Shown: piece after piece, positions 1 through 46,163 of the stretch
Layout of the letters: every line of letters begins with the position of its first letter
Numbering within the stretch: the first letter of the stretch is position 1
IMG/VR virus record: IMGVR_UViG_3300032088_002153
Location: 17,906 to 81,905 of that record
Source: a virus
Reading direction: 5' to 3' (one strand)
DNA length: 64,000 nucleotides
Program-made: the position numbers and the translations under genes
Notes under the pieces: generated by a model
What the model saw: the letters and a program-made list of their open reading frames with translations, nothing else
What the model was told of the DNA's origin: nothing
Database searches by the model: none

Positions 1-1518
1 GAACTAGAGTTTACAAAGGCTAATATATACAAACACCATATTATGGCAGAGTTAGCTGAAGAGTTTGACGAAGTTATGTATGTAGATATGGATGTTGTTT
101 TCAATACGGAAAAGAACGTGTTTGATGAATTGGATTTGAGTAAAGGCATTCACATCCAAGTACAGACACACGAAGTTACAAGCAAGGACATTGAAGGTGT
201 TATGTTTGAAAATATCGGAAACCGTTCTCCTACATTGAAATACCACATCACAAAAGATTTATTAAATGGTAAAGATAACCACGTAATGAATACTGGTATT
301 ATGATCGCCAAGTCTGAGCATATCAAGAAAATTAAATACATTGAAAGACTTCCTAGCATCATAAAAAGAATACAAGATATGCGAGTTTCTGGAGTAAGCA
401 ATGATGAATACAAATTTCTTAGAATGTATTACTACCCAAACAACGAAAGCATTTTTTCGTATATCATGGAAAGTACAGACATTCCTTATGAGATTATGGA
501 TGAGAGATGGCACAAGATCATCAAAGATACCCCGCAACCATTGGATTGGGATAACATTGAGATTGCGCATTTCATAGGTAAAAAGTTTAGCACGTTCTTC
601 CAAGATAAGACAAAGTTAATATATTCTATTTACATTGAAATACCCGATGAACACTTAGATAATCCAAGAGGACCTAAAGACGATCCTGTAAACAAAAGCA
701 AGCGAACTAAAGAAAGGCTGGCTGCATATAAAGATAAGCTGTACGACAACCATCTTGAATATGCACATGCTCAAAAGGCAACTTATATTCACTTTGGCAG
801 AGATGATAGATACGAAAAGTTTCGTGCTAGGTTTCCCGATTTGTCAGAATATGATATAATCAATTTATATAAGGTATATCTTTTAGATTACATGACGCAC
901 TATTATGATTTAGTATTGTACGTGGACTTTGATGTTTGGTTTGATAAATTCGAAGTTAACACCTTTGATTGGTTAATGGGTGAGCATCTGCTTTGTTGTG
1001 ATGCAGCTAACGCTGAAAATTCTGGCGTAAAACTTTGGGATGCATTATATCTTAAAAACTATGATAAAGACTTTAGGTCACCAGAAGCCAAGTATTGGAA
1101 CTGCCATGCAATGTTATCTGAAGAAGATGTTGAGCCTGACAATTATGTTTTCAATACAGGTATTATGATGGCAAGTAAAAAGGTTATGGAACAGTTAGAT
1201 TACTTTTCTGATATAGATGAAACCCTTGCTATGATGAAAGAACTAAAGGAAGACTCCATATATCCACCACAAGTGCAAGAATCATTTGGGTACGACAATG
1301 AAACAATCATGGCGTACAAAGTTAAAATGAATAATGTGTTTGTGCAAAGATTATCTCAGACGTGGCATCTTAAACATATGAGCGAAAAAATTCAAGCGTT
1401 TGATAAAAATACAAATGAATATGAAATTAGTAAACAAAAACTAAAAGCAGAAATGGCTGAACACAATACAGTAATGGTTCACATGATTTCTAAGAACTTT
1501 GGATTACTGGTCGAGTAA
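1..1518 (+). CDS. Tandem-domain glycosyltransferase (5' end outside window)
   Basis: The frame is open from base 1, and the first in-frame Met at 43 lies inside a conserved helix-strand unit, so the true start is upstream of the window. Two GT-A-like units are visible: the first has YVDMDVV just after the Met and NTGIMIA about 85 residues later; the second has YVDFDVW near residue 292 and FNTGIMM near residue 369. The DxD pairs are the usual metal/nucleotide-sugar ligands of GT8-like enzymes. The repetition suggests internal duplication. The acceptor is unknown; phage glycosyltransferases modify DNA, virion proteins or surface glycan. Its last 29 bases overlap the end of the convergent gene on the other strand. 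Confidence 0.75.
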   Translation, partial: ELEFTKANIYKHHIMAELAEEFDEVMYVDMDVVFNTEKNVFDELDLSKGIHIQVQTHEVTSKDIEGVMFENIGNRSPTLKYHITKDLLNGKDNHVMNTGIMIAKSEHIKKIKYIERLPSIIKRIQDMRVSGVSNDEYKFLRMYYYPNNESIFSYIMESTDIPYEIMDERWHKIIKDTPQPLDWDNIEIAHFIGKKFSTFFQDKTKLIYSIYIEIPDEHLDNPRGPKDDPVNKSKRTKERLAAYKDKLYDNHLEYAHAQKATYIHFGRDDRYEKFRARFPDLSEYDIINLYKVYLLDYMTHYYDLVLYVDFDVWFDKFEVNTFDWLMGEHLLCCDAANAENSGVKLWDALYLKNYDKDFRSPEAKYWNCHAMLSEEDVEPDNYVFNTGIMMASKKVMEQLDYFSDIDETLAMMKELKEDSIYPPQVQESFGYDNETIMAYKVKMNNVFVQRLSQTWHLKHMSEKIQAFDKNTNEYEISKQKLKAEMAEHNTVMVHMISKNFGLLVE

Positions 1519-2362
1519 GTGGACTCCAAGGAGTATAATGTCCTTTTATACTATTCTTATAACTATCATCCTGCTTCATAAGATGTAATGTTAAACCAAT
1601 CTTAGAACCCTCAAATTCGGTTGGCGCATGCAGCACTGATGTATCTTGTACGATTGCATGGCAATGTTCCCACGGAAATATATTTTCAATACTTAACCCA
1701 TCGTATACAGATAAAGGAATATGTTTAGGCATGATTTCTTTCAACTTATGTACGTCTCTATTACCAACATCAATATTATCCACTCCATAATATGAGTAGT
1801 TCATATGCTTAATCACGTTATGGTAATTTGCAAAGGAAGCTATTTCCCTTCCCTTCATAAACATAGTTGCATGTCCACGATACCTTTGATGGAACGTTAC
1901 ATAAGTGCCGGGACCATTAATTTCTAGTGGTATAATAATATCTTTGTATGGTCTGTAACCATCTAAGTGCGTAACGGCGTCGGTATGTAAACCATATGGC
2001 TTTACAGCTTTAAACATTTGATCGCCAACACTCATAGGATCATCGCCAGCTATATCCGAATAGAATATTGTATCCTCACCAAACTCTTCATATATTTTTG
2101 GTCTGATAATATCTGATATTTCTTTGATAAGCATTGGATATACTATTCTATAAATATGTTCGTTAATTATTTCGCCATTTGTATTAAAGTGGTAATCCCA
2201 TGCACATAGTAATTGTTCTCTTTCCGTGTCTGTTATGAAATCATGAATTACATAGGAAGGCTCGTTTTGATCTTTGAACATCTTAACGTTTGGGTTATGT
2301 ATAATGTCCATAGTTCTGAGTTCATCATCAGAAAAAGGTCTATCAGTTCTGTATATATTCAT
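1490..2362 (-). CDS. 2OG-Fe(II) oxygenase-like protein (last gene of minus operon)
   Basis: This is a 290-residue protein with a double-stranded beta-helix signature: HTD at residues 126-128 (two iron ligands) and a distal His at 245 (VLHAPTEFEG). The usual 2OG-anchoring Arg about ten residues after the distal His is a Lys (254). It is longer than its neighbours. Its start overlaps the previous gene by 20 nt, so it is translated as part of the same operon. The substrate is unknown. The family call rests on motif spacing only. Confidence 0.6.
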   Translation of the reverse strand: MNIYRTDRPFSDDELRTMDIIHNPNVKMFKDQNEPSYVIHDFITDTEREQLLCAWDYHFNTNGEIINEHIYRIVYPMLIKEISDIIRPKIYEEFGEDTIFYSDIAGDDPMSVGDQMFKAVKPYGLHTDAVTHLDGYRPYKDIIIPLEINGPGTYVTFHQRYRGHATMFMKGREIASFANYHNVIKHMNYSYYGVDNIDVGNRDVHKLKEIMPKHIPLSVYDGLSIENIFPWEHCHAIVQDTSVLHAPTEFEGSKIGLTLHLMKQDDSYKNSIKGHYTPWSPLTRPVIQSS

Positions 2363-2822
2363 TAGGTATTGCCTCTATTACTTCTTGCCAAGTTTCTCTC
2401 ATTACAAATTTCATCTGCAGCCTTTCATACGGTACTGGGTCAACCCAATGTCTTATATCGCCATTGTTAATTGCCATTGCTTCGTAAGGTACGTTGCCTA
2501 CACCTTCAATACCTATAACTGGCGTTTGATCCATTAAGTTTATTTGTATAGATGTAACATGATCTTCATCATAGTGTATAGGTATGTCGTTATTAGTTTC
2601 TAACCAATAAAACCTTGGTCTATTATCAAACTGTTGAATATTCAAAGCCTCTGCTACTTCATTTATATTAGGGTCCTCACCTTGTTGCGGATAAGTCTGC
2701 CACCATTTATCTACTTGGTCAAACTGTTTCCACTGATACCAGCGTCCGGTATTTCGCCATGCCTCTGCTACTTCTCTAAAGCGCGGTTTATCTATTTTAA
2801 AGTTAAGATGTAGTAAATTCAT
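2343..2822 (-). CDS. 2OG-Fe(II) oxygenase-like protein
   Basis: This 159-residue protein has HYD at 83-85, a distal His at 125 (RHWVDP) and Arg 134, the H-x-D...H...R order of 2OG-Fe(II) dioxygenases. The N-terminal 70 residues are rich in Trp and Arg and are not recognised. It overlaps both neighbours by 20 nt. The substrate cannot be read from the sequence; aspartyl/asparaginyl-hydroxylase-like folds are the closest visual match. Confidence 0.6.
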   Translation of the reverse strand: MNLLHLNFKIDKPRFREVAEAWRNTGRWYQWKQFDQVDKWWQTYPQQGEDPNINEVAEALNIQQFDNRPRFYWLETNNDIPIHYDEDHVTSIQINLMDQTPVIGIEGVGNVPYEAMAINNGDIRHWVDPVPYERLQMKFVMRETWQEVIEAIPNEYIQN

Positions 2823-3246
2823 ATTCAGATAATTCGTTAAAAATTTCTATTGCTTCATTAATTGGTTCTTGGAATGATATATTGATACTATACCTAGTAT
2901 GTTCGTTATTAAATACAGCATGCCTAGATTGAGTATTCAACAACATTACACCACTAAACGTTTCATCCTCAAAAGAGCAGGGTGCATAATGGCCAGATAG
3001 CGGATAGCTTAGTGCAGCGTTTCGTTTACCATCAACATGCCAATCCATAACGTCGTGTGGTTCTAACTTTATGAGTGCAACATTACGATTTGCAAATTTT
3101 AATCCTGTTTGATAATAATACATTCCCATACGATTACCTGATACTGTGGATTGATATGGTGTCCACTCTTTAACACTTTCAGCCATGTTTAAAAAATCGT
3201 TGTGACGCTCTTCCGATAAAAACCGTGGCAATTCATAATAATTCAT
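2803..3246 (-). CDS. 2OG-Fe(II) oxygenase, Asp/Asn-hydroxylase-like
   Basis: This compact 147-residue protein shows a clear motif set: DWHVDG (His 70, Asp 72), distal His 109 (SRHAVFNN) and Arg 118 (TRYSINISF). The distance between the two His residues (39) is similar to that in its neighbours (about 40-50), consistent with one shared fold. It overlaps the upstream gene by 4 nt (ATGA type), showing translational coupling. The substrate is unknown. Confidence 0.7.
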   Translation of the reverse strand: MNYYELPRFLSEERHNDFLNMAESVKEWTPYQSTVSGNRMGMYYYQTGLKFANRNVALIKLEPHDVMDWHVDGKRNAALSYPLSGHYAPCSFEDETFSGVMLLNTQSRHAVFNNEHTRYSINISFQEPINEAIEIFNELSEYEFTTS

Positions 3247-3962
3247 TTGTAAAATCCTTTAAATATTCTAAATATTTCTTGGTGACCTTTTGCATTAGGG
3301 TGTCTATCTTGTTTGCTAATCATACAATCCCCTTGCATTAATTCTTCAAAACAACAACCGCCATATTGCCAGTGAAAAGGCCAACCAAACATATTGCCTT
3401 TTCTCTTGTGTATCATATTAAAGTAATTAGAGTCTAACATATCATATACATCTTTGTTTTCAACAAGTGGATATATCATTTGAAACACAATAAGTTCTAT
3501 ATTTTTGTGTGAACATAAATCCATTAATACATATAATTGAAATAGAGTTTCTTCTACAAGGCATTTTTTAGTATTATCATCAAATGGAATAATATTAAAA
3601 TAATCGTCGTGTCTATTTGTCCATTTTTGATGTTTGGCTTTTTGTTCTTCAGACACGTCATTATCCCATACAACATTTTTGTTTGTGTTTGGATTAAAAC
3701 GATTGTCACCGGGAGTAGAAAATCTATACCACTGAGATAAGGCTATAATACATCTAGTAGTATTACATGTATATATTTGTTTTATTGCTCTCTTTATTAT
3801 TTCTACATTACCGAGAGCATCTCCATAAACGTTAACAACGTCCCAGTCATAATAATCTTGTAATAACTCATCCCACTTTGGATATGATGTGTCGTAGCTG
3901 GGGTGGATCCTTGGAAAATAATTTCTGTTAGACCAACTGCAGCCAGACAGTATTGTTTTCAT
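3243..3962 (-). CDS. SGNH/GDSL-hydrolase-like protein, paralogue A
   Basis: The 239-residue protein begins with the block I-like motif SGCSWS and ends with HPNAKGHQEI, which resembles the catalytic Asp/His block of SGNH hydrolases. A second gene at 49854-50666 shares both blocks and the phrase YDTSYPKW, so the two are paralogues in distant operons. SGNH enzymes remove or transfer acyl groups on glycans or lipids. Here the first block has Cys-Ser-Trp in place of the usual GDS, so activity is uncertain. It lies inside the oxygenase operon with 4-nt overlaps on both sides. Confidence 0.6.
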   Translation of the reverse strand: MKTILSGCSWSNRNYFPRIHPSYDTSYPKWDELLQDYYDWDVVNVYGDALGNVEIIKRAIKQIYTCNTTRCIIALSQWYRFSTPGDNRFNPNTNKNVVWDNDVSEEQKAKHQKWTNRHDDYFNIIPFDDNTKKCLVEETLFQLYVLMDLCSHKNIELIVFQMIYPLVENKDVYDMLDSNYFNMIHKRKGNMFGWPFHWQYGGCCFEELMQGDCMISKQDRHPNAKGHQEIFRIFKGFYK

Positions 3963-4453
3963 AACATAGTGCCGACGATATGAGTTCGAGATGATGTAGA
4001 AGCATTAACAAATGTGTGAATGTTTGTTGTGTCTACCTCATAAACACTGCCATCTGCCGGCAGCCTAAAGATTTCATCGTTCATAACAAAGAAGTTATTA
4101 TCGTTGGTTTCAATTGGTATATGTATTCTTTTAGTAAAGTCTTTGTGATAAGTATAACATGTTTTACCATTCAATATCATAACCCTACTATATGCCAGAT
4201 TGTATTTTCCTAACAAAGAGTTGATATATGGCAATGCAAAATGAAACTCAACCAAGTCTTTGGCTGTTACTTTCGTTTGTCTTTCCCAAGCGTTAGTTTG
4301 GTTTGTTGCAGGTACTATATGTTTAAATACACTATCTTCAACACGTTCACCTTGAAGTGCGTAAGTCGTTTCATGGTGAATAAGAGATAACTCACTCTTA
4401 ATTTTTTCGAGATCAACTGTATCAATTACTCTATAATAAGATTGTCTATCCAT
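3959..4453 (-). CDS. 2OG-Fe(II) oxygenase, Asp/Asn-hydroxylase-like
   Basis: This 164-residue protein has TYHKDF (His 103, Asp 105) followed by RIHIPIETN, a distal His at 146 (NIHTFVN) and Arg 156 (SSRTHIVG). The phrase HIPI(E/T)T is shared with the oxygenase at 5389-6192, so these two are closer relatives. It sits in the same overlapping operon. The target is not known. Confidence 0.7.
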   Translation of the reverse strand: MDRQSYYRVIDTVDLEKIKSELSLIHHETTYALQGERVEDSVFKHIVPATNQTNAWERQTKVTAKDLVEFHFALPYINSLLGKYNLAYSRVMILNGKTCYTYHKDFTKRIHIPIETNDNNFFVMNDEIFRLPADGSVYEVDTTNIHTFVNASTSSRTHIVGTML

Positions 4454-4890
4454 GCTTGTTCGCTCACTGTAAAATCATTTGGATGGTTAATTGTTATAGC
4501 GGTTTGTGTACCCGTAATTCCAGAAACGGAATTTTTAACGTGCGAGTCAATAAGATACCATTCTCCTGCTACCGCTGTAATAGAAGACGTAACATTATCG
4601 TCAGCATCGTGAGCATGTAATATTGTGCCTACAGGATCAATAATATATAATATTCTCCAACGCGACTCCGTTGTAAAAATTCTACTATTTTTAGTCGAGT
4701 CTGACTCCTGATAACGAGTGTGTGAGTTATTTAAAATCTCTTCTAATATTTGTTCGTCTACTAAAGTTGATGTTGCGTCTGCAAGAGTCCAAGCAGTGTA
4801 ATTGATAATTGAACTATCGTATTCAATTTCTAGTGCGTTGTGGATTGGCGAAGGCATTGTCAACTGTGGTAAGTTTAGTTTTTTAATCAT
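4426..4890 (-). CDS. Possible degenerate 2OG-oxygenase-fold protein
   Basis: This 154-residue protein sits between two recognisable oxygenases. It contains HAHD at 92-95, an equivalent His at 117 (IDSHVKNS) and Gln 129 where the family has Arg. The spacing fits a beta-helix iron site but the conserved residues are weaker, so it may be inactive or bind something else. It overlaps the downstream gene by 28 nt and the upstream gene by 4 nt. The oxygenase relationship is inference from context and spacing. Confidence 0.4.
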   Translation of the reverse strand: MIKKLNLPQLTMPSPIHNALEIEYDSSIINYTAWTLADATSTLVDEQILEEILNNSHTRYQESDSTKNSRIFTTESRWRILYIIDPVGTILHAHDADDNVTSSITAVAGEWYLIDSHVKNSVSGITGTQTAITINHPNDFTVSEQAWIDNLIIE

Positions 4891-5396
4891 TTTAGTTCTC
4901 CGAATGGAATGTCGTGTATCCCCATATGAAAGACGATACGTTCCTTTGTTGGCGATTTTACACCATGTGGTTTTTTTGTATTAAGTACAGTCATAGTGTC
5001 ATATACTATGGAGTCTCTTGTATTCCCATCATCAACATATAATTCGCCAGTATTTTCAGTTACAGGTATCAGTACTGAGCAATGGCTCTTAACATCAACA
5101 TGAACTGGCAACTCTCCACCTTCTAATACTCTAAAAAAGTTGCAGCGGAATTCTTGTGGTCTTATTTCAAATGTATTCCATATTTTTTTAATCAACCTAA
5201 GAAGTGGTCTATTAAAATTGTGTATCTCTTGGACAAAGAACTTATTCATTTCTTTACCACCTGTTGCATCACTAACATATTCTGAATATAGTTTATTACT
5301 ATCAGTCCATTCGCCAGTTATATAATTTTCCCAAAAAATTGGGTCAACCTTATAATCAGTTTTTATAAACGAATCATTTATCCATGTTTTATCCAT
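4887..5396 (-). CDS. 2OG-Fe(II) oxygenase-like protein
   Basis: The start is placed at the ATG at 5396 because AGGAAGA lies just upstream; an in-frame ATG at 5414 would add six residues. From 5396 the motifs are PVHVDV (His 99, Asp 101), distal His 144 (KKPHGVKS) and Arg 153 (ERIVFHMG). These residues match the iron-ligand and 2OG-binding positions of the family. It is part of the minus-strand operon. Confidence 0.65.
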   Translation of the reverse strand: MDKTWINDSFIKTDYKVDPIFWENYITGEWTDSNKLYSEYVSDATGGKEMNKFFVQEIHNFNRPLLRLIKKIWNTFEIRPQEFRCNFFRVLEGGELPVHVDVKSHCSVLIPVTENTGELYVDDGNTRDSIVYDTMTVLNTKKPHGVKSPTKERIVFHMGIHDIPFGELK

Positions 5397-6192
5397 GTAA
5401 ATCTTCCTGACCATTAACTGATATAATAATATGTGACCGTGTAGTCGTACCTTTGTTCCAAGCCGAATGCCTCATGCCTTGATTTAAAAACCATAGTGAT
5501 CCCGGTTCCATAGTCTGATTTATTTTGCTCCCATCTTTATCTATACAATAAAATCCACAATCATCATTTGTTGTAATCGGAATATGAAACCGAATAGAAT
5601 AATCGGTATTGTAGTCGATATGCTCGGCAACGTAAGCACCCGGCTCCATAATAGCAATTCTTGCTCGTGTAACTTCGCCTTTAAATGTTTTAAGTATTTC
5701 TTCTAGGTAAGTACCCTTTACCCAGTCTTTCATTAAGTTATAGTGTCTTTCGTCAAGTCTGCTTTTAGGTATTTTCTTTTCATAGATCCGATCTTCTTCA
5801 TCTGGGTTATATTTAGTCAAAGCAATTTGTTTATATGGCGATCCATTAACTTCAAATTTGCCCTTGCCATCTTCTACAATATAATCTTCAAATGGCTTTA
5901 CATAGTTTCTAAAATCCCAAGCCATACGCTTGCCGCCTAAACCATTACGGAACTCAGACTCTTTTACATCGTTATCTTGTAAGAATTGATAAGCATCTTC
6001 AATCGTATCAAATTTTAAACCAAAAGCTTTTTGTAACTTTGCAGTTTTTCCACCAACCAAATCTCCATAGCCATCTTTTTCTTTTAGATCGTCATTTTCT
6101 GGTGGCATATTACGAACAACTTCAATGATTTTGTTTACATCAAAATGTGCGTCAAGTTTTTGAAACGGTGGCAGCTCATATCTGGTTTTCAT
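5389..6192 (-). CDS. 2OG-Fe(II) oxygenase, aspartyl/asparaginyl-hydroxylase-like
   Basis: This 267-residue protein has a C-terminal catalytic domain with AEHIDYN (His 191, Asp 193), RFHIPITTN, a distal His 242 (MRHSAWN) and Arg 252 (TRSHIIIS). This is the best textbook match in the cluster to the aspartyl/asparaginyl beta-hydroxylase type. The N-terminal 170 residues are charged and unassigned and may bind the substrate. It couples by 4 nt to the acetyltransferase-like gene upstream. Confidence 0.75.
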   Translation of the reverse strand: MKTRYELPPFQKLDAHFDVNKIIEVVRNMPPENDDLKEKDGYGDLVGGKTAKLQKAFGLKFDTIEDAYQFLQDNDVKESEFRNGLGGKRMAWDFRNYVKPFEDYIVEDGKGKFEVNGSPYKQIALTKYNPDEEDRIYEKKIPKSRLDERHYNLMKDWVKGTYLEEILKTFKGEVTRARIAIMEPGAYVAEHIDYNTDYSIRFHIPITTNDDCGFYCIDKDGSKINQTMEPGSLWFLNQGMRHSAWNKGTTTRSHIIISVNGQEDLHG

Positions 6193-6689
6193 AATTTTGT
6201 ATATCCTTTATATTGTAAACATCCATGACCGTCACAAACCGGTACTTTTTTGTCATGCATATTCCATATTGTATCTGTTGCCATTGCCACTTTATTTATA
6301 AACTCTCGCAGCATTCTGGGGTTCTTTTCTCTACTTATAAATGCTGAGGTATATCCGAGTTCTTTTGCAAACTTCAATTGGTCTTTGACGGTAGATATAA
6401 TATGGCTTCTTGCTAATTCTCTACCGATACGACGCAATTCTTGGTTTTCCCAATAACGATTTAATATTCTAACCTCACCCTTTTCATAATATTCAGGTCT
6501 ATGCCATATAGAACTAAATCCTACTATGTCGTCACCATTTTGTAATATAGAAACACAATCAAACTGAAACCAGTCTAAACCATCATAATTAACGTGGTCA
6601 TAAACTGTTTCTGATAATTGCTTTATAATGTCTGGCCTATCCTCTGGAAAAAAGCTAGTGACACTACATTCTGAGTTCAGCAATGTCAT
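6189..6689 (-). CDS. GNAT-like acyltransferase (putative)
   Basis: The middle of this roughly 166-residue protein (VSILQNGDDIVGFSSIW, then GEVRILNRYW, then GYTSAFISREKNPRML) reads like the strand-turn-helix core of a GNAT fold, but the classical acyl-CoA loop R/Q-x-x-G-x-G/A is not clear. The ATG at 6689 is preferred over one at 6716, which would overlap the upstream gene by 53 nt. It is the only enzyme of its type in the oxygenase operon and could acylate the same substrate. Confidence 0.45.
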   Translation of the reverse strand: MTLLNSECSVTSFFPEDRPDIIKQLSETVYDHVNYDGLDWFQFDCVSILQNGDDIVGFSSIWHRPEYYEKGEVRILNRYWENQELRRIGRELARSHIISTVKDQLKFAKELGYTSAFISREKNPRMLREFINKVAMATDTIWNMHDKKVPVCDGHGCLQYKGYTKL

Positions 6690-7242
6690 TCCAAAACTCT
6701 TTCTTTTTCTTACCATGAATTAATAAATGTAATCTGTCTTCGTCAGAATTATTTTCAACCATATGTGGGTAGTGAATGTTTAAAACAAACGATGAACCGG
6801 GATGATATGGTATTTCCTCGCCGTCCATAACAAACTTACTTCCCTTTGGATATGTAATAGATATATTAAGAGGATCCAGCCAGTTATGTTCTGGCACATC
6901 GATATGTTCAGCAATATAACCACCAGATTTTATAACAAGATATCTGACATCATCTATTCGAGCATATGGTAATGAATTAACAAAATCCATAGTTGCAGGA
7001 CATTGCTTTCCAATTTCAGTAATATCCTTTTTAACTTTACGTCCATATTCCCAATGACTATTTGTATTATCAGAAGCAGTGCCGTATAATGTCATAGCAA
7101 ACCAATCCTTATGACCATCCTCTGGTCTATGGATAACTAATGAGTCTTTGACTAATTTATATTCTTTTTCTATATCAGAGCAAGGAACATTAAAGTTCAT
7201 CTTTACCCAATGTGCGTCGCTACTTCTTTGCATGATGATCAC
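6664..7242 (-). CDS. 2OG-Fe(II) oxygenase, Asp/Asn-hydroxylase-like
   Basis: The start is taken as the GTG at 7242, six bases after an AAGGAA ribosome site; an ATG at 7233 is the alternative. The motifs are AEHIDVP (His 113, Asp 115 from the GTG), distal His 160 (YPHMVEN) and Arg 170. The phrase GGYIAEHID closely resembles GAYVAEHID in the gene at 5389-6192, indicating common descent. It is the second gene of the operon, after the desaturase. Confidence 0.7.
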   Translation of the reverse strand: MIIMQRSSDAHWVKMNFNVPCSDIEKEYKLVKDSLVIHRPEDGHKDWFAMTLYGTASDNTNSHWEYGRKVKKDITEIGKQCPATMDFVNSLPYARIDDVRYLVIKSGGYIAEHIDVPEHNWLDPLNISITYPKGSKFVMDGEEIPYHPGSSFVLNIHYPHMVENNSDEDRLHLLIHGKKKKEFWNDIAELRM

Positions 7243-7774
7243 TGTGGTTTCCTTCAAGTGGAGCAAAAAGATTTATCCACCATTTATTAGCAGCGCCGTC
7301 GTCGTCATGGGCTACCAAATTAAGTAATCCGTAAAACATAAATGATGTTGGTAATAATAACAATAAATGCGCAAGAAATATTGGATTTATATAAAATGCT
7401 ACAATATAAGTTATAACGAAAACATATAATTTGTTCTTGTGGAAAAACATAACTCTTGGATTATTATAAAGGTCCTTTACAAACTTTCTTGGTATATGCT
7501 TTACTTTATAAGCCGAAAACAATACTTCATACCATTTTTTATATTTTGGACTATGTGGGTCTAACTCAGTATCAGCATATGCGTGATGCATACGATGAAC
7601 GCCTGCCCAACTTAATGGCGAACATGCGCTAGCCATAGTACCTAAGTAAATTATTATTGTTTCTAATATTGGGTGCAGTTTTATTTGCTTATGTGATATG
7701 CATCTATGATACCCTATCGTCAACCCGACAGCAGCTACTACCCAATAAAATATATAAAAGTGGACTAAAAACAT
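7220..7774 (-). CDS. Fatty-acid desaturase (acyl-CoA/lipid delta-9 type)
   Basis: This integral membrane di-iron enzyme of 184 residues has the three histidine boxes of the family: HRCISH near the N terminus, HRMHH in the middle and HSDHH near the C terminus, with hydrophobic segments between. Such enzymes insert a double bond into acyl chains and use electrons from a ferredoxin or cytochrome. The ATG at 7774 follows GAGG; a TTG at 7786 would add four residues. It is shorter than cellular delta-9 desaturases. It is first in the minus-strand operon, just downstream of a late promoter. Desaturases also occur in marine cyanophages. Confidence 0.85.
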   Translation of the reverse strand: MFLVHFYIFYWVVAAVGLTIGYHRCISHKQIKLHPILETIIIYLGTMASACSPLSWAGVHRMHHAYADTELDPHSPKYKKWYEVLFSAYKVKHIPRKFVKDLYNNPRVMFFHKNKLYVFVITYIVAFYINPIFLAHLLLLLPTSFMFYGLLNLVAHDDDGAANKWWINLFAPLEGNHSDHHAKK

Positions 7775-7801: not shown

Positions 7802-7809
7802 TATTTATA
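7802..7809 (-). promoter_or_regulatory. Late promoter TATAAATA for the minus-strand operon
   Basis: TATAAATA on the minus strand is a perfect match to the T4 late-promoter box recognised by the gp55 sigma factor. Initiation would fall near 7796, about 20 bases before the desaturase ATG. It is the only plausible promoter seen for the ten-gene block. Confidence 0.7.
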
Positions 7810-8274: not shown

Positions 8275-9063
8275 ATGGGTAAATTCTTATTAACAACGGC
8301 ACTAACTTTGGTAGCCGGTGCAGCGATTGCACAGGAAGTAACCGAAGCACCAGTAGGATTAACTGGTAAAATTGAAACAGTAATTGCTGAAGGTGCTGGT
8401 GGAGATTGGGGTGCAACGTCATCTTTTGATCTTGGCGTATCTGCAGGATCTGGCTTAGCATCAGGTTCTATGTCTTTCGTCGTTGACTCAAATAACGATT
8501 TGGCTTTAGACGAATATTCAATCGGTACATCAATCGGTGGAACTGAATTGTCATTTGGAGACCAAGGCAATATTTGGATTGACACAGAAAACGGTTCTTC
8601 TATTGAAGAAGCAAAGATTGCTGATGAAAGCATTCAAGCAACTATCGCAGGTGTATCAGTAGCAGCCGGCTTAAACATGGATGATTTAACTGACATTCAA
8701 AACGTACAAGCTGGTTACGGTATTCCATTAGGAATTGCTAACATCAACGCAGTAGGTGACTATAACCTAAACAGTGAATCATGGATTGTAGCAGGTCGCG
8801 CAGACACAGACGGTATGTTGGAAAATGTACGTATCGGTGGTGCAGTATCATACGGTTCAATTTCAGAAAAACTTGGCTTTGAAGCTGACGCTACAGTAGG
8901 ACCATTAACTGGTTATATTGGCGGTGACCAAGATGATCTAATGAAAGATGCAGGCGTTAATGGTGAAGTTGCTGTTGCAGGTATCGATGTAGAAACTAAA
9001 TTGAACTATAACTTTGACAGTGAAGAATTAACACCATCAGTTGGTTTAAGTTTCAACTTCTAA
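8275..9063 (+). CDS. Outer-membrane porin-like beta-barrel protein A
   Basis: This 262-residue protein has a signal peptide (basic MGK, hydrophobic core, cleavage near AIAQ), then alternating short hydrophobic/polar strands rich in Gly, and a final SFNF with C-terminal Phe, the signal for BAM-mediated outer-membrane insertion. It resembles small alphaproteobacterial porins in style. It lies directly after the tmRNA with AAGGAAAAAGG as ribosome site and ends before a strong terminator. A phage copy could change nutrient uptake or block receptors against other phages; neither is shown. Confidence 0.7.
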   Translation: MGKFLLTTALTLVAGAAIAQEVTEAPVGLTGKIETVIAEGAGGDWGATSSFDLGVSAGSGLASGSMSFVVDSNNDLALDEYSIGTSIGGTELSFGDQGNIWIDTENGSSIEEAKIADESIQATIAGVSVAAGLNMDDLTDIQNVQAGYGIPLGIANINAVGDYNLNSESWIVAGRADTDGMLENVRIGGAVSYGSISEKLGFEADATVGPLTGYIGGDQDDLMKDAGVNGEVAVAGIDVETKLNYNFDSEELTPSVGLSFNF

Positions 9064-9155: not shown

Positions 9156-9698
9156 ATGACTAATAAATTGAAGCAACTCACATGGGCACATCACCAAGCA
9201 GCTGAACGTAGAAAATTTGCTAAGCAACTAATTAGTGGTGGCATAGACCCATTCGTATATTATAAGTTTTTAAATTGTCAGTACTTAGTATACAGACTAT
9301 TAGAAGACATTGTAATTATTCCACCAAACCTTACTGCAATTTATAGAGCTCCGCGTATTCTTCAGGATATGGATGAGTTATCAGAAATTTATGGATTTGA
9401 CGATATTGATAGTTATCCAGAATCAGTTGGCAGATGTATGACACACATGCAAGGATTGGCTGATGCAGACGATAACGATAGTCTATTAGCACATATGTAT
9501 GTAAGGCATTTTGGTGAACTTCATGGTGGACAAATCATTAAAGCTAAGACACCCGGAAAAGGGATTATGTATGAATTTGAAGGTGACACAAAAGTACTTA
9601 TCGAAGAATTTAGAAAACTATTGCACGATGGTATGGAAGTAGAAGCTAAGAAATGCTTTGATTTCGCATCAGAATTATTTGACGAATTATCCAAATAA
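9156..9698 (+). CDS. hemO: Heme oxygenase (biliverdin-forming)
   Basis: Heme oxygenases open heme to biliverdin, CO and Fe2+ using electrons from a reductant such as ferredoxin. This 180-residue all-helical protein is a normal bacterial length. His 13 in HHQAAE matches the proximal heme ligand motif H-x-x-A-E, and MYVRHFGELHGGQ matches the distal helix with its flexible glycines. It precedes a bilin reductase gene (9929), so biliverdin is the likely intermediate, not only iron release. It has its own late promoter, while the bilin reductase has a host-type promoter. It is clearly of the HO family; whether it belongs to the HemO or Ho1 subgroup is not resolved. Confidence 0.9.
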   Translation: MTNKLKQLTWAHHQAAERRKFAKQLISGGIDPFVYYKFLNCQYLVYRLLEDIVIIPPNLTAIYRAPRILQDMDELSEIYGFDDIDSYPESVGRCMTHMQGLADADDNDSLLAHMYVRHFGELHGGQIIKAKTPGKGIMYEFEGDTKVLIEEFRKLLHDGMEVEAKKCFDFASELFDELSK

Positions 9699-9701
9699 CT
9701 A

Positions 9702-9730
9702 TTGACATTCTTAGCTATTTGTTATAAAAT
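9702..9730 (+). promoter_or_regulatory. Sigma70-type promoter before the bilin reductase operon
   Basis: TTGACA (9702-9707), a 17-nt spacer and TAAAAT (9725-9730), starting 4 bases after the heme oxygenase stop. It shares the CTATTGACATT block with several other promoters in this window. Confidence 0.75.
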
Positions 9731-9764
9731 ACTAATATAAATCAAAACATATAAGGAGAGTAAA

Positions 9765-9932
9765 ATGCAAGATGACGCATTAGATACAGTTAACCTTAAA
9801 CCAAAACCGCGCGCTGAACGAATGCTTAAAAGTAACAGCGCACGTCGGCGGCGAAGTGTACTCAAATCAATTAGAGAAACACGTTTGTTAAATGAATTCG
9901 CAAAACTCCGAAGATTAAGAAAAAGCAAATGA
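9765..9932 (+). CDS. Small Arg/Lys-rich protein (55 aa)
   Basis: The ATG at 9765 follows AAGGAGAG. The 55-residue product is strongly basic (SARRRR, FAKLRRLRK) with no membrane segment. Its TGA overlaps the start of the bilin reductase in ATGA, so the two are translationally coupled. The function is not recognised; the composition suggests nucleic-acid binding. Confidence 0.7.
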   Translation: MQDDALDTVNLKPKPRAERMLKSNSARRRRSVLKSIRETRLLNEFAKLRRLRKSK

Positions 9933-10615
9933 CTCCATTATGGGATAAATTGAATGATTACGCTGCGCATATTCGTGGCAAGTTTCAAGACAACTTTACT
10001 GAATATGAAGAGCCTGCTATGAACGATCTTTATTTTAAAGATTGGGATGATAGGTTTTGGCATTCACCCATTGTTAATAAAGCACATTTAAAGACTATCG
10101 TACCAGCAGATGGTAAAGGTCTTTGGTTGATGCACGTTAATGTTTTCCCTAAGGCTGGTTTAGAATTGCCAATCTTAGGGTTTGACATCGTTGCTGGACC
10201 AAAGAAAATTACTGGTTCGTTTATGGATTTCTCTCCGCTGCATGGCTTTGAGCATCCATATAGTGATTACATGGCTAATAAGGTTAAAGACTTAGAATGG
10301 AATAAACCAAGAGAACTACCAGATTGGGCAAAAGAAATATTTTCAAAATCAATGATTGCAGTTGGAAATATTAATACTGATAAAGAATTAGACCAATTCA
10401 TTGCTGTAACATCAGATCTAGTTAATTATTATTTAGATAATTTAAAAGATATGACTTATGTATCAAATCGCGATACATCACCTTTATTAAACAAATATTG
10501 TGTTAACCAAAAGAAAAATCCGCACCTTCATCGGTCAATACTTGCTATGGGTATTACTGAAGAAGACAAAGACGATTATGTAAATAATGTTCTTTTTGCG
10601 GAGATTAACGGTTGA
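9929..10615 (+). CDS. pcyX: Ferredoxin-dependent bilin reductase (PcyX/PebS-like)
   Basis: FDBRs reduce biliverdin stepwise to phycobilins with ferredoxin electrons. The 228-residue protein shows the family landmarks: FPKAGLELPILGFDIV (73-88), then MDFSPL (99-104) whose Asp 100 aligns with the catalytic Asp 105 of PcyA, Asp 182 in NRDTSPLL, and YCVNQKKNPHLHRSIL followed by YVNNVLF at the C terminus. Four-electron viral enzymes of this kind (PebS in cyanophages, PcyX in marine phages assigned to alphaproteobacterial hosts) make phycoerythrobilin; the PcyX assignment here is inference from host signals. It lies close behind heme oxygenase. No ferredoxin gene is visible in the window. Confidence 0.85.
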   Translation: MTPLWDKLNDYAAHIRGKFQDNFTEYEEPAMNDLYFKDWDDRFWHSPIVNKAHLKTIVPADGKGLWLMHVNVFPKAGLELPILGFDIVAGPKKITGSFMDFSPLHGFEHPYSDYMANKVKDLEWNKPRELPDWAKEIFSKSMIAVGNINTDKELDQFIAVTSDLVNYYLDNLKDMTYVSNRDTSPLLNKYCVNQKKNPHLHRSILAMGITEEDKDDYVNNVLFAEING

Positions 10616-39367: not shown

Positions 39368-40564
39368 ATGAACTATCTGAAATACTTTGAAAAAACAGTT
39401 AAAGAATTTAAAGCCGATGGCAGATATAGAGTCTTTAACGATATACTTAGAGAGCGAGGGTCTTTCCCTCGTTCAATATGGTATGGTAAGTATGCTCCAA
39501 AAAATATAGTGAACTGGTGTTCTAATGATTATTTAGGTATGGGTCAAAATCCATATGTTATTGATTCAATGCATACAGCTTTGGATCAGACAGGTGCTGG
39601 ATCAGGCGGTACTCGTAATATAGGTGGAACATCACATTACCATGTTACATTAGAGCGAGAGATAGCATCTTTACATAAAACTCAATCGGCATTAATATTT
39701 ACAAGCGCATATGTTGCTAATGAATGGTCACTTATAGCCTTATCTAAAATTATACCAAATATATGTTTTGTTTCTGATAGCAAAAACCATGCTTCAATTA
39801 TTATGGGTATGGTAAATAGTAGAGCAGAAAAACTAATATTTGAACATAACGATATGTCTGATTTGGAAACAAAACTCAAACTGGCGCTTAAACGTAAACT
39901 AAACCCCGTAATTGTATTTGAGTCAATATACTCGATGGACGGAGATGTATCACCTATAAAATCAATAGTTGATCTGGCATATAAATATAAGGCAATGACT
40001 TATATAGACGAGGTCCATGCAGTAGGTCTTTATGGTAAAACAGGCGCTGGGTATTGTGAAGAGCTAAACTTATATTCTGATAGTATCGACATTGTGAACG
40101 GTACATTGGGAAAAGCTTACGGCGTCCAAGGAGGTTACATTGCAGGTAATCAAACTATTATTGACGCTATTAGGTCGACGGCAAGTGGTTTCATATTCAC
40201 TACCAGTATGTCACCAGTTATATGCGCTGGGGCACTCGCCAGTATAAATTATCTAAAGGATCACAACTCCCTTAGAGAAAAACATCAAGAACGTGTTGCC
40301 AAACTCAAAGGCATGCTTATTGATGCAGGAATAAATATCCATCCAAACGCTTGTACTCACATTATACCAGTGATGGTCAATGATGCGTTTAAATGTAAAG
40401 AAGCTTCGGATAGATTAATAAACGAATTCGGTATATACATACAACCAATTAATTCTCCAACAGTGGAACAAGGGACCGAGCGATTACGTATCGCACCTAC
40501 TCCATACCATACCGATATAATGATGGTAGAATTAGTTGAAGCGCTGAAAGAAGTATTGAAATGA
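39368..40564 (+). CDS. hemA: 5-aminolevulinate synthase (Shemin pathway)
   Basis: This PLP enzyme condenses glycine and succinyl-CoA to 5-aminolevulinate, the first step of tetrapyrrole synthesis. The 398-residue protein has [19 protein letters not shown] (79-97), [10 protein letters not shown], the PLP-contact [12 protein letters not shown] (Asp 214) and the Schiff-base Lys 249 in NGTLGKAYG, all matching ALAS more closely than other alpha-oxoamine synthases. ALAS in bacteria is characteristic of alphaproteobacteria. It is 3 nt behind nrdA, so it is made in the early/middle phase, and it overlaps the DUF454 frame. With hemO and the bilin reductase it forms an open tetrapyrrole route completed by host enzymes. 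Confidence 0.92.
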
Positions 40565-40605
40565 ATCAATTAGAAAATGCATTCTTCAGTAAAAAGGAAA
40601 ATAAC

Positions 40606-41025
40606 ATGACTAGAATTAAAAAAGCTTTTTGGTTTACACTTGGAATTCTATTAGTCGGCGTAGCTTACCTCGGTGTAATACTACCCGGACTACCTTGGAG
40701 TACACCAATCTTAGGCGCAACATTTTGTTTTGCAAAGTCAAGTGATAGGCTACACGGTTGGATTATGAATCATCCAAAGTTTGGTCCGTTTGTTAAAAAC
40801 TGGTCAACATACAGAGTTTATCCAACCTTAGCAAAATGGGCAATGGTTGGCGTTATGTCAACATCATTAGCATTTATGTACTTTGGTACAGGTAATGAAA
40901 AAGCAACATTATATATGTTTATTACTTTTGCACTTATAGTTTTTTGGGCATGGCGTTACCCAGGATCGCAAGCTGAAGCTGAACGTCGTATTGAAGCCGG
41001 TGAAAAAATCGGTTGGTTGAAATAA
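40606..41025 (+). CDS. DUF454 (YbaN-like) inner-membrane protein
   Basis: The ATG at 40606 follows AAAAAGGAAA; an ATGA-coupled start at 40561 is possible. The 139-residue protein has GVAYLGVILPGLPWSTPI, FAKSSDRLHGWI and two further hydrophobic segments, the DUF454 layout. The family function is unsettled. Its place between ALA synthase and a porin suggests a link to tetrapyrrole or metal handling, which is inference. Confidence 0.75.
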   Translation: MTRIKKAFWFTLGILLVGVAYLGVILPGLPWSTPILGATFCFAKSSDRLHGWIMNHPKFGPFVKNWSTYRVYPTLAKWAMVGVMSTSLAFMYFGTGNEKATLYMFITFALIVFWAWRYPGSQAEAERRIEAGEKIGWLK

Positions 41026-41036
41026 AGGATTAAGAT

Positions 41037-41981
41037 ATGAAAACACTTACAAGTACTATTATTGCATCACTTATGGCATCAGGTGCCATAGCTGGTGGAC
41101 ATGACCATGCAGAAGCAAAGGATGGTCCTTTCATTAATGGTACATTTGAAATCTATATTGATGATACGAATACTGAAGGTCATGTAGACACTCGATTTGA
41201 AGCAGTGGGAGGTTATGAAACAGAACTTGACCATCCATTAGCAAATTGGGCAGGATTTTCAGCCAAGTTTGATACAAATTATGCGTTAGATCGTAACCTT
41301 GATAATACCATTACTGAAAAGCAAATGGGTTTAGGTGTCGGTAATAACGCAAGAATTTGGTTTGGTGAAACTGACATTCAGCGTTTAGGATTTGCCAAGA
41401 CATCAAAAATTGGTGCACCAGTGATTATCACAAAACAAAATTCGCGTATTGACCACCAAGAAAAGATTGCGCTTACATTTGGTGGATGGGGATATAATGA
41501 TGAGTTTGCATTTAATAACTATCGTTTACAAAGAGATATGCCATATGCTGGTGTAGTCGCTTGGGATCCGGAAACAAAAGCAATGTATTACGGCGTAACT
41601 GCTCGTGCAAAAATTGTTGATGTATCATATATGCAAATTGATACAGATGGTGAAACACAAACAGGTTATTCAGTAGGTACCTCGTTGCATCGTATGGGTA
41701 TACCAATTGGTATAGGATATGAACAATGGGAAGATGCCGAAAATACTCGTAAAGATATTGGTGTAATGTATAACTATAGCAAAGAATTAATGTTTACTGC
41801 GCACAACGTAACGGACGATGATTTAGGATTTACATATAATTACCTAGCAGCCATCCATACAAAAGGTCCAGTAGAGTTAGGTCTATATTACCATAATGAT
41901 AAGGTACAAGTTAGTCCATGGACAGGCCAAACATCAAACATTGATGATAGTGTGAAGGCAACAATCAAATATAAATTCTGA
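41037..41981 (+). CDS. Outer-membrane porin-like beta-barrel protein B
   Basis: The signal peptide (MKTLTSTIIASLMASGAIAGG) is followed by HDHAEAKDG, a possible metal-binding start, then about a dozen alternating beta strands and a C-terminal YKF. The 314-residue length fits a small trimeric porin. It is unrelated by eye to porin A except in architecture. It is the last gene of the nrd-hem unit, directly before a late promoter and hairpin. Confidence 0.7.
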   Translation: MKTLTSTIIASLMASGAIAGGHDHAEAKDGPFINGTFEIYIDDTNTEGHVDTRFEAVGGYETELDHPLANWAGFSAKFDTNYALDRNLDNTITEKQMGLGVGNNARIWFGETDIQRLGFAKTSKIGAPVIITKQNSRIDHQEKIALTFGGWGYNDEFAFNNYRLQRDMPYAGVVAWDPETKAMYYGVTARAKIVDVSYMQIDTDGETQTGYSVGTSLHRMGIPIGIGYEQWEDAENTRKDIGVMYNYSKELMFTAHNVTDDDLGFTYNYLAAIHTKGPVELGLYYHNDKVQVSPWTGQTSNIDDSVKATIKYKF

Positions 41982-41982
41982 T

Positions 41983-41990
41983 TATAAATA
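41983..41990 (+). promoter_or_regulatory. Late promoter TATAAATA for the glycan cluster
   Basis: A perfect box right after the porin stop; initiation near 41996 places the following hairpin at the very 5' end of late RNA. Confidence 0.7.
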
Positions 41991-42001
41991 CAATTAATAT
42001 G

Positions 42002-42035
42002 ACAACCACCTCTGATTATCACGTGGTTGTTCTTT
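42002..42035 (+). terminator. Terminator-like hairpin after porin B, 5' of the glycan operon
   Basis: ACAACCAC (42002-42009) and GTGGTTGT (42023-42030) form a perfect 8-bp stem with a 13-nt loop, followed by TCTTT. It can terminate the nrd-hem-porin transcript, and it is also the 5' hairpin of the late transcript starting at about 41996. Confidence 0.75.
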
Positions 42036-42063
42036 ACACTATGATTTTGATGAAGGAGATATT

Positions 42064-43089
42064 ATGTCAAAAAGAATTCTGATTACCGGCGGTGGTGGTT
42101 TTATCGCACACCATTTAATTAACCGAGTACTTAAACAAACTGACTGGGAAATTATTACAGTCGATCGTTTAGACTATAGCGGTAATTTAAACAGATTACA
42201 TGATCTCTTACAAGAACGTACTGCAGAAGAACGCAAACGTCTTCGTACAATTTTCCACGATTTAAAAGCTGAATTTAATCCAATGCTTATTGCTGACATT
42301 GGACCAATTGATATTGTAGCACACTTGGCTGCAGGTTCACACGTAGATCGTTCTATTGATTTTCCAATGGAATTTGTTATGGATAATGTTGTCGGTACAT
42401 GTAACATTTTAGAGTTTGCACGTAAACAAGAAAACCTTGAGCGTTTCCTATATTTCTCAACTGATGAAGTATTTGGACCAGCGCCAGAAGGTGTTAATTA
42501 TGATGAATATGATCGTTACAATTCAACTAATCCGTACTCGGCTTCAAAGGCTGGTGCTGAAGAGCTTTGTGTAGCATATCAGAATTCTTATAACATGCCA
42601 ATTTATATTACACATACTATGAATGTATTTGGCGAAAGACAACATCCCGAGAAATTTATTCCTATGACTATTCGTAATGTACGAGATGGTGGTAAGGTAA
42701 CAATTCATAGTGATGCGTCAAAAACAATCCCAGGATCTCGTCATTATATCCATGCTGAAGATGTGGCAGATGCAACTCTGTTTTTATTAGAACATGAGGG
42801 TACTCTTAATATTACTAATAACTCTGGCGTCAAATGTCCAAAGTTTAATATCTGTGGTGCAACTGAATTGAATAATTTAGAATTGGCTCAAATGATTGCT
42901 GACGCTCAAGGTAAGCCACTCAATTATGAGTTTATGGATTTCCATAGTTCTCGACCTGGGCATGATTTGCGTTATGCATTAAGTGGTAATAGAATGAAAG
43001 AAATGGGATGGGAACCAAAGCCAGTACAAGAACGTATTGCTGAGGTAGTTAACTGGACATTAAACAATACAAGGTGGTTAGACATATGA
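42064..43089 (+). CDS. NDP-sugar 4,6-dehydratase/epimerase (RmlB-like)
   Basis: An extended short-chain dehydrogenase with LITGGGGFIAHHL (NAD-binding Rossmann loop), YFSTDEVFGPAP, the catalytic YSASK near residue 157 and FGERQHPEKFIP. The STDEVFG motif favours dTDP-glucose 4,6-dehydratase-like chemistry over simple epimerases. The 341-residue length is normal. It is the first gene of the glycan operon. Confidence 0.82.
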   Translation: MSKRILITGGGGFIAHHLINRVLKQTDWEIITVDRLDYSGNLNRLHDLLQERTAEERKRLRTIFHDLKAEFNPMLIADIGPIDIVAHLAAGSHVDRSIDFPMEFVMDNVVGTCNILEFARKQENLERFLYFSTDEVFGPAPEGVNYDEYDRYNSTNPYSASKAGAEELCVAYQNSYNMPIYITHTMNVFGERQHPEKFIPMTIRNVRDGGKVTIHSDASKTIPGSRHYIHAEDVADATLFLLEHEGTLNITNNSGVKCPKFNICGATELNNLELAQMIADAQGKPLNYEFMDFHSSRPGHDLRYALSGNRMKEMGWEPKPVQERIAEVVNWTLNNTRWLDI

Positions 43090-43664
43090 GTTTCGTACAA
43101 TTTATAGAAGGCGAATATAATAACGCCAAGAATACATTTTCTGATATTAATGAGCATCTCGAGCTGCTATTTAATTTAGGAATGGAATGTGAACATATTA
43201 CAGAAATGGGAGTGCGTGATGGTCAAAGTACTAAAGCATTCCTTAATACAAATGCAGCTTTAAGATCATACGATATTGAATTGAACTGGGAAGTAAGCGA
43301 GTTATTTAAACGAGCTAAAACCGTAGGTAAAGATGTTGTATACGAAAAAGCAAACGTATTGAATATTGATATAGAACAAACTGATTTACTCTTTATTGAT
43401 ACATGGCATTCTGGTTCCCAACTAAAACGTGAGCTAGCAATGCATGGTAATAAAGCAAATAAGTATTTGGTTTTCCACGATACTCAAACATATGGCTGCA
43501 GAGACGAAAAAGAAAACTGGAGAGATTTCGCTGATAAACGACCAATGCCTAATGAAGGTTTAATTGGACCAATCGTTAACTTTGTTATCAACAATCCTGA
43601 GTGGAAATTTAAAGAATTCCGAACTAACAATAACGGACTTACTGTACTTGAAAGGACTAAGTAA
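43086..43664 (+). CDS. Class I methyltransferase-like protein
   Basis: The ATG at 43086 overlaps the preceding stop (ATGA). ITEMGVRDGQSTKAFL looks like a SAM-binding loop, and LLFIDTWHSGSQLKRELAMH with KYLVFHDTQTYG gives the acidic and metal-like sites of MT24-type enzymes; it resembles the protein at 21249 in outline. It is probably a sugar O-methyltransferase or a related hydrolase fold. Confidence 0.6.
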   Translation: MSFVQFIEGEYNNAKNTFSDINEHLELLFNLGMECEHITEMGVRDGQSTKAFLNTNAALRSYDIELNWEVSELFKRAKTVGKDVVYEKANVLNIDIEQTDLLFIDTWHSGSQLKRELAMHGNKANKYLVFHDTQTYGCRDEKENWRDFADKRPMPNEGLIGPIVNFVINNPEWKFKEFRTNNNGLTVLERTK

Positions 43665-45202: not shown

Positions 45203-45440
45203 GGCAGGCAGTGCTAGTATAGACATATTAAGACTTGAAATTAAAGATTTAAATAGAGAAATTAATGAGTTATACAAAGAACATGATATAATAAAGAATC
45301 AAAATATGATGTTACTTGAAGTACTATCGGATCTGACTGGCGACGAGAGTTATTGGTCAGATGAAGCCAAAAAGTCAGGCTTGATATTTAAACTAACAAA
45401 CGTTTTAACTCAAATAAAAAGTAACTTTGGACACAATTAA
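45192..45440 (+). CDS. Small coiled-coil protein (82 aa)
   Basis: A leucine-rich coiled coil covers residues 10-50 (LEIKDLNREINELYKEHD), followed by a short polar end. It overlaps the GT17 fusion by 11 nt. The function is not recognised. Confidence 0.55.
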   Translation: MKVKAGSASIDILRLEIKDLNREINELYKEHDIIKNQNMMLLEVLSDLTGDESYWSDEAKKSGLIFKLTNVLTQIKSNFGHN

Positions 45441-45443
45441 CTA

Positions 45444-45472
45444 TTGACATAGCGTATAGAATCAGTTATATT
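45444..45472 (+). promoter_or_regulatory. Sigma70-type promoter for the SleB-like gene
   Basis: TTGACA (45444-45449), a 17-nt spacer and TATATT (45467-45472), followed by AGAATCAACAAATA, the same tail as in the promoters at 51975 and 52606. Confidence 0.75.
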
Positions 45473-45506
45473 AGAATCAACAAATATAAAAACTGAGGCA
45501 AAAACT

Positions 45507-46022
45507 ATGAAACTTAAAACAGCAATTTGTGCACTTCTTATTAATACCACTGCGTTTGCAGGATTTATTCAATTGGGCTCCGAATTAAAGGCTCAGGAGG
45601 TTGATGCAGCATTAGCTGAGTTCCACGCAGATGAACTTGAGTGTATGGCTCTAAACATCTATTATGAGACCAGAGCGTCTTCACTTATTGACGCAGTATC
45701 AGTATCTGATGTGGTATTAAACCGTGTTGAAAGTTCACGTTATCCAAATACAGTTTGTGGTGTAGTACAAGACGGTTATAAACCTAATCGTGTGACATGC
45801 CAGTTTTCTTGGTACTGTGATGGTAAGTCAGATGTACCACAGGATGATGAGTCTTGGGAAAAGTCACGTAAACATGCTCGTGATATGTATGTACACCAAA
45901 CACATCGTGGCATTACAGAAAGCGCAACACACTACCACGCTACATACGTATCGCCATACTGGGCACCTTCTATGCATAGAGTAGCACGTATGGGTTCACA
46001 TATTTTTTATAGAGAAGACTAA
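45507..46022 (+). CDS. Secreted SleB/CwlJ-type cell-wall hydrolase
   Basis: A signal peptide (cleavage near AFAG) precedes the Hydrolase_2 domain: CMALNIYYETRASS with the catalytic Glu, then NRVESSRYPNTVCGVVQ and CQFSWYCDGK, and a SATHYHATYVSPYW end. These enzymes are lytic transglycosylases or amidases of peptidoglycan. Its early-type promoter and Sec signal distinguish it from the late cytosolic endolysin at 31702; it may remodel the wall early or serve in superinfection control. Confidence 0.85.
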   Translation: MKLKTAICALLINTTAFAGFIQLGSELKAQEVDAALAEFHADELECMALNIYYETRASSLIDAVSVSDVVLNRVESSRYPNTVCGVVQDGYKPNRVTCQFSWYCDGKSDVPQDDESWEKSRKHARDMYVHQTHRGITESATHYHATYVSPYWAPSMHRVARMGSHIFYRED

Positions 46023-46023
46023 T

Positions 46024-46152: not shown

Positions 46153-46163
46153 GGAGAATACAA

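Follow-up and report, generated by a model that had tools for sequence, protein, structure and literature searches.

Here we report a contiguous operon of overlapping genes from a marine T4-like virus, in which seven genes encode Fe(II)/2OG oxygenases with intact predicted active sites and an eighth encodes a degenerate member of the set. Multiple 2OG genes in phages are already known, and what appears to be new is their arrangement in a contiguous overlapping array. The location of the oxygenase operon beside genes typical of tail-fibre regions suggests that the virus chemically decorates a component used in host recognition. Few unexplained genes are as common in marine phages as those for 2OG oxygenases; an old, conserved, and modular array tied to a host-recognition region points to one shared role, argues against viewing each 2OG gene as a separate stray metabolic gene, and represents an experimentally tractable set.

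The analyzed stretch of 64,000 nucleotides, referred to here as the window, covers positions 17906-81905 of the 81,905-base IMG/VR virus record IMGVR_UViG_3300032088_002153, which is itself a fragment. The virus is T4-like, with genes for UvsX (best phage match 65%, Phage C48C1), gp32, and the gp59 helicase loader found after the operon region. The minus strand between 1490 and 7774 carries 11 overlapping ORFs transcribed in the order K, J, I, H, G, F, E, D, C, B, A, with overlaps of 4 to ~50 nt between adjacent ORFs, in agreement with the single overlapping operon proposed in a preliminary description of this DNA. Comparison with one orthologous operon gave dN/dS values of ~0.01-0.10 for all 11 genes, showing at the sequence level that each of them is under strong purifying selection. 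The operon and its flanking features are as follows:

7802-7809, minus strand: TATAAATA, T4-type late promoter motif, 28 nt upstream of the K start
7220-7774, minus strand: K, fatty-acid desaturase, membrane protein, first gene of the operon
6664-7233, minus strand: J, Asp/Asn-hydroxylase-like 2OG oxygenase, 189 aa (H110-x-D112, H157, R167), cluster core
6189-6716, minus strand: I, conserved protein (dN/dS 0.058)
5389-6192, minus strand: H, Asp/Asn-hydroxylase-like 2OG oxygenase, 267 aa (H191-x-D193, H242, R252), cluster core
4887-5414, minus strand: G, 2OG oxygenase, 175 aa (H105-x-D107, H150, R159), cluster core
4426-4890, minus strand: F, degenerate 2OG-fold protein, 154 aa (fold match, broken metal/2OG site)
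3959-4453, minus strand: E, Asp/Asn-hydroxylase-like 2OG oxygenase, 164 aa (H103-x-D105, H146, R156)
3243-3962, minus strand: D, candidate SGNH/GDSL-like hydrolase or acyltransferase, assigned at the motif level only (GCSW...DxHPN.xGH)
2803-3246, minus strand: C, 2OG oxygenase, 147 aa (H70-x-D72, H109, R118)
2343-2822, minus strand: B, 2OG oxygenase, 159 aa (H83-x-D85, H125, R134)
1490-2362, minus strand: A, PhyH/P4H-like 2OG oxygenase, 290 aa (HTD126-128, H245, K254; predicted fold)
43-1518, plus strand: putative tandem glycosyltransferase with two DxD-type motifs (VDMD/VDFD), convergent with A

Since 66 of 302 unrelated genes (22%) contain a loose H-x-D...H...R/K pattern, the presence of the motif by itself was not accepted as proof of 2OG membership, and the assignments are decided by homology and fold. 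Three proteins pass the Pfam gathering cut-off for PF05118 (Asp_Arg_Hydrox), namely E (24.7 bits), H (47.8 bits), and J (48.0 bits), and these match one another; for A, B, C, F, and G, no PF05118 score exceeded the cut-off, and single-protein scans against Pfam and PHROG yielded nothing significant. Iterated profile searches over 47 non-redundant loci united C, E, G, H, and J, while B joined this group via G (hhalign E-value 2e-4; 39 shared members in the iterated search). Among the window proteins, the H-family profile retrieved C (4e-7), G (1e-20), E (7e-32), and J (8e-62), with E-values that are inflated because relatives were included in the iteration. The residues aligned in the iterated searches are the catalytic ones. 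H was further aligned through its HxD, H, and R residues to solved hydroxylases, the nucleoside-antibiotic beta-hydroxylase 7v4f (E-value 2e-8) and proline cis-4-hydroxylase (1e-6); PDB sequence searches with the A, G, and J profiles returned chance matches only. The PF05118 family, which includes AspH and these two hydroxylases, is thus matched by H, J, and E, although at low identity and with the long N-terminal region of H lying outside the family model. The HxD...H iron triad and the distal Arg or Lys are conserved in orthologues of all seven proteins; the motifs of B and C are invariant among their orthologues, and that of G, a family present in 39 loci, is kept in 13 orthologues.

Protein A has no detectable sequence similarity to the other 2OG proteins of the operon. 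Among 30 homologues of A, 15 columns are invariant, including H126, D128, H245, and K254. Its AlphaFold model (pLDDT 84) has the proline hydroxylase H11 as the top Foldseek match (5.7e-6) and, among the matches listed, 2OG enzymes only; the Z scores are 15.8 for SnoN, 15.3 for the P. putida P4H, and 15.0 for the viral collagen prolyl hydroxylase (vCPH). The invariant HxD...H...K residues and the predicted fold confirm the assignment of A as a 2OG oxygenase. The double-stranded beta-helix fold is predicted from models for A and F and by homology for the remaining members. PF05118 matches, iterated HMMs, invariant motifs, and the predicted fold of A confirm A, B, C, E, G, H, and J (1490-7233) as the seven 2OG-Fe(II)-oxygenase-like genes of the preliminary description, and HMM searches did not place most of them outside the 2OG/cupin superfamily, the outcome it had named as refuting.

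The eighth gene, previously proposed to have a degenerate site, has the fold and a broken metal/2OG site. The model of F matches proline 3-hydroxylase (Z 11.4) and AspH (Z 10.3), with a pLDDT of 81 that belongs to the best of five widely differing models. In the window's lineage, the distal His is replaced by Asn, the Arg by Gln, and the HxD is lost; in F orthologues of another lineage, the distal H...R is retained and HxS stands instead of HxD. F therefore lacks the metal- and 2OG-binding residues of the family, has only the 2OG/cupin fold, and is probably not a canonical 2OG enzyme. The possibility that F is a decaying pseudogene was rejected by its dN/dS of 0.098 against the orthologous operon, and this purifying selection leads us to read F as a maintained non-catalytic or altered-site protein.

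Relatives of the array were collected as many marine loci from scans of viral contigs, most of them incomplete, and every ORF was labeled; several contigs are near-identical, so the independent lineages are fewer than the loci. The core K-(TauD)-J-I-H-G recurs among these loci, and the genes that come after it differ between lineages: F-E-D-C-B-A in this virus, L074, and L005; F-MTase-C-B-A in L063; C-B-A in L043 and L046; A-A in L057 and L061; and E-TauD-F-A plus one further gene in L068, L031, L034, L064, and L065. The last five loci carry ten 2OG genes, including two TauD (PF02668), in ~8.5 kb, so that the tandem set is as unusually large as first noted and is larger still in some relatives. 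A tree of the PF05118-like superfamily, which could not accommodate A or F, resolves each of B, C, E, G, H, and J as a clade of its own across marine viral contigs, mostly with SH-aLRT support of 96 or more (88 for G). The stems of these position-specific clades measure ~0.8-2.6 changes per site, compared with ~0.05-0.5 between orthologues, which indicates that these genes are not recent copies. A recent tandem duplication of the six genes was thus rejected, and the array is, as judged from the tree, an old expansion or assembly of distinct enzymes.

The genomic neighborhood links the array to host recognition. The gene that comes after the last 2OG gene, or converges with it, encodes in ~20 loci either a tail-fibre family protein (PHROG) or one carrying the N-terminal domain of the major tropism determinant (Mtd_N; PF18454, 40.5 bits). 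In the isolated SAR11 phage Mosig EXVC030M, an Asp_Arg_Hydrox gene adjoins annotated tail-fibre genes. A virion-like ORF located upstream in the window's contig (L001:11855-12856) has no PHROG match, either here or in relatives, and its putative connection to tail fibres is solely its position beside tail-fibre genes in relatives; the tail-fibre part of the cluster is accordingly only putative in the window's own record. Two radical SAM proteins encoded to the left of the operon carry a SPASM/twitch domain at the N-terminus (NF033640), the first of them scoring on one side of the cut-off and the second on the other, so that one lies above it and one below. Two glycosyltransferase-like proteins that show DxD-type motifs and one methyltransferase-like protein, all three lacking a Pfam match, are encoded there as well. 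The counterpart of the glycosyltransferase at 43-1518 adjoins the 2OG genes in relatives and has the same direction. The radical SAM, glycosyltransferase-like, methyltransferase-like, and 2OG genes are all co-directional in L090; the window and L074 carry the 2OG half in inverted orientation, so that it converges on the glycosyltransferase-like gene. Some relatives also carry TauD, sulfotransferase, nitroreductase, and methyltransferase genes. We infer that the 2OG array belongs to a larger host-recognition cluster, together with the radical SAM, putative glycosyltransferase, methyltransferase-like, and desaturase genes.

In pelagimyophages, a similar variable island, the 'host recognition cluster' (HRC), combines genes for tail fibres and glycosyltransferases with radical SAM cassettes; its glycosyltransferases were interpreted as LPS-modifying, and an Asp/Asn beta-hydroxylase was reported as core to these phages (Zaragoza-Solas 2020, PMC7029224). 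The HRC features, namely a tail-fibre, glycosyltransferase, and radical SAM island in a marine T4-like phage, were found in relatives of the array, with the glycosyltransferases recognized by motifs. The passages of PMC7029224 considered here do not mention seven to ten 2OG enzymes in tandem. The HRC lies between VrlC and gp14 in phages of SAR11 hosts, and this virus is likened to it by gene content. The Mosig cluster (MT647606) contains Asp_Arg_Hydrox, FA_desaturase, TauD, N-acetyltransferase, and Asp_Arg_Hydrox genes beside tail fibres with radical SAM nearby, but its 2OG genes are interspersed with other enzymes, and none of the families A, B, C, E, F, and G was recovered in it; no isolated phage with the A or G family was found in the phage collection. 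Several non-orthologous 2OG-Fe(II) genes per genome are also known in cyanophages and pelagiphages (PMC3037559, PMC9599517, PMC11561400), with up to five in cyanophages (Sullivan 2010, PMC3037559) and eight kinds, non-adjacent, in pelagipodophages (Wittmers 2022, PMC9599517). These genes are reported to be often nearby but not adjacent, whereas here eight form one overlapping operon, and we found no description of a contiguous 2OG operon of this kind in the papers cited here on marine-phage 2OG genes and the HRC.

The late timing proposed earlier is indirectly favored, though not proven, by the late-type TATAAATA motif 28 nt upstream of K and by the neighboring genes. Among 17 such motifs in the window, 8 precede a same-strand ORF start by no more than 60 nt, compared with 1.1 for random positions, and none of 2000 random trials was as high as observed. 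The same motif also precedes gp32 and is therefore not exclusive to late genes.

In the reading that we tentatively prefer, non-redundant cytoplasmic oxygenases would modify one shared host-recognition product late in infection, the first-choice product being a tail-fibre or adhesin protein from the adjacent genes. The operon would be transcribed from the late-type promoter, and the oxygenases would act successively, or at different sites, on a product made or decorated by the cluster; the new hydroxyls would alter this product or prime further modification, such as glycosylation, and F may have a scaffolding or regulatory role as a subunit. Membrane segments are absent from the 2OG proteins, which points to cytoplasmic action. 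That each enzyme keeps its own conserved active site speaks for distinct target sites or steps, the common operon and conserved gene order for one product, and the position beside host-recognition genes for a product with that function. The substrates of PF05118 and related 2OG families range from proteins and amino acids to lipid A and small molecules, and the fold matches of the models do not discriminate between them. A search for EGF-like substrates found none. In a bolder and rather unlikely version, at least seven 2OG hydroxylases together with radical SAM enzymes and glycosyltransferases would form an oxygenase assembly line that densely modifies receptor-binding proteins in a lineage-specific manner; if true, gain and loss of oxygenase genes would diversify host recognition by chemistry, beyond sequence alone.

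It is possible, if less probable, that the target of the operon is instead a glycan or lipid of the host surface (LPS, O-antigen, or lipid A), remodeled for instance to keep out competing phages, and that the oxygenases hydroxylate sugars or acyl chains together with the desaturase, the SGNH-like protein, and glycosyltransferases. The desaturase K, as the leading gene of the operon, points towards lipids and against an adhesin protein, and the TauD, sulfotransferase, nitroreductase, and methyltransferase genes of relatives are typical of surface-polymer loci. J is weakly similar to the lipid A hydroxylase LpxO (14.6 bits, E-value 0.013), but this score is far under the LpxO equivalog cut-off of 500 bits (NF033391). 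LpxO-type enzymes are expected to have a membrane anchor, and none of the 2OG proteins has such segments; nor did the stretch of the cluster that was read show genes for glycan assembly or export (flippase, ligase). The LPS-modifying role assigned to HRC glycosyltransferases (PMC7029224) also fits a surface polymer. We rank this explanation second, after the adhesin, because the desaturase and the wider enzyme mix of relatives also suit an envelope polymer.

We consider hydroxylation of Pro or Lys in the Gly-X-Y repeats of a collagen-like phage fibre, as in giant viruses, quite improbable. Collagen-like ORFs are present in the window (62055-63998; PF01391) and in a close relative (1594 aa, G001), and A is structurally near vCPH, although its Z score of 15.0 is tied with many other 2OG enzymes. 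No collagen match was found in seven other cluster contigs, most of them incomplete, or in phage Mosig, so collagen is not supported as a general substrate across relatives, and it would leave the shared core J-H-G unexplained. An auxiliary metabolic role, in which the enzymes would use up 2OG and O2 or adjust iron or nitrogen metabolism and each would act on different host metabolites, is improbable. Cyanophage 2OG genes have been proposed to affect 2OG/N signaling (PMC3037559), and heme oxygenase and bilin reductase are encoded next door; however, 2OG drawdown does not need seven divergent, individually conserved active sites, and the 2OG genes share an operon and adjoin host-recognition genes. 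Among the substrates proposed in the preliminary description, protein and glycan or lipid stay candidates, and DNA is the least likely. Hypermodification of DNA or nucleotides before packaging would recall the phage 2OG enzymes that oxidize 5mC, and the record encodes a carbamoyltransferase and glycosyltransferase-like proteins. It is nevertheless highly improbable, as no Tet_JBP (PF12851) match was found in the record, itself a fragment, each of the seven intact proteins resembles AspH or PhyH/P4H in family or predicted fold, and relatives place the array with tail-fibre genes rather than DNA-metabolism genes.

The remaining operon genes bear out the preliminary description in part. K is a desaturase as proposed (PF00487, 34.8 bits, above the cut-off) and contains hydrophobic segments. 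D, for which a homologue is present in phage Mosig, has the motifs of an SGNH-like protein, although its match to Pfam Lipase_GDSL_2 is not significant (E-value 0.21). The acyltransferase-like identity of I was not borne out, with no Pfam match and no detectable family; a GNAT identity was not supported either, the link to the Mosig N-acetyltransferase being weak (hhalign probability 9%). A host assignment from a Rhodobacteraceae MAG match was also rejected, since this bin has seven UvsX copies, indicating that phage contigs were binned with it.

In the orthologues of the degenerate 2OG-fold protein F from the related loci L073 and L068 and their relatives, HxS replaces HxD and the distal H...R pair is kept; a missing Asp ligand is a known feature of 2OG halogenases. 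The related loci L068, L031, L034, L064 and L065 each carry an island of ten 2OG-type genes, two of which are TauD, and the same island includes a sulfotransferase and a nitroreductase. The operon is also found on L090, a 71-kb contig inside the MAG Rhodobacteraceae bacterium Water_Bin34, a bin whose seven UvsX genes indicate that it took in several phage contigs.

Further genes lie beside the operon and elsewhere in the virus record (L001, in record positions; the others in window positions):

8275-9063, plus strand: 262-aa ORF with a signal-peptide-like N-terminus and a porin-like appearance
9156-10615, plus strand: tandem heme oxygenase (PF01126) and ferredoxin-dependent bilin reductase (PF05996) adjoining the operon
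39368-49870, plus strand: aminotransferase, nucleotide-sugar epimerase, GT17-like and Nol-like carbamoyltransferase genes
62055-63998, plus strand: collagen-like ORF containing numerous Gly-X-Y repeats (PF01391 Collagen, 116.8 bits)
L001:3737-4468, minus strand: class 3 lipase (PF01764, 80.9 bits)
L001:13441-14163, minus strand: phage-encoded protein-kinase-like ORF (PF00069, 38.5 bits)

Pfam and PHROG searches gave no match for the 262-aa ORF. The heme oxygenase/bilin reductase tandem resembles those of cyanophages and of the SAR11 phage Mosig, and the genes at 39368-49870 possibly constitute a second sugar-modification set. The collagen-like ORF is incomplete, extending past the record end; among the other cluster-bearing contigs examined, such an ORF was absent from all except the relative G001, where it encodes 1594 aa. 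The protein-kinase-like ORF has a virion-like ORF on one side and the radical SAM genes on the other.
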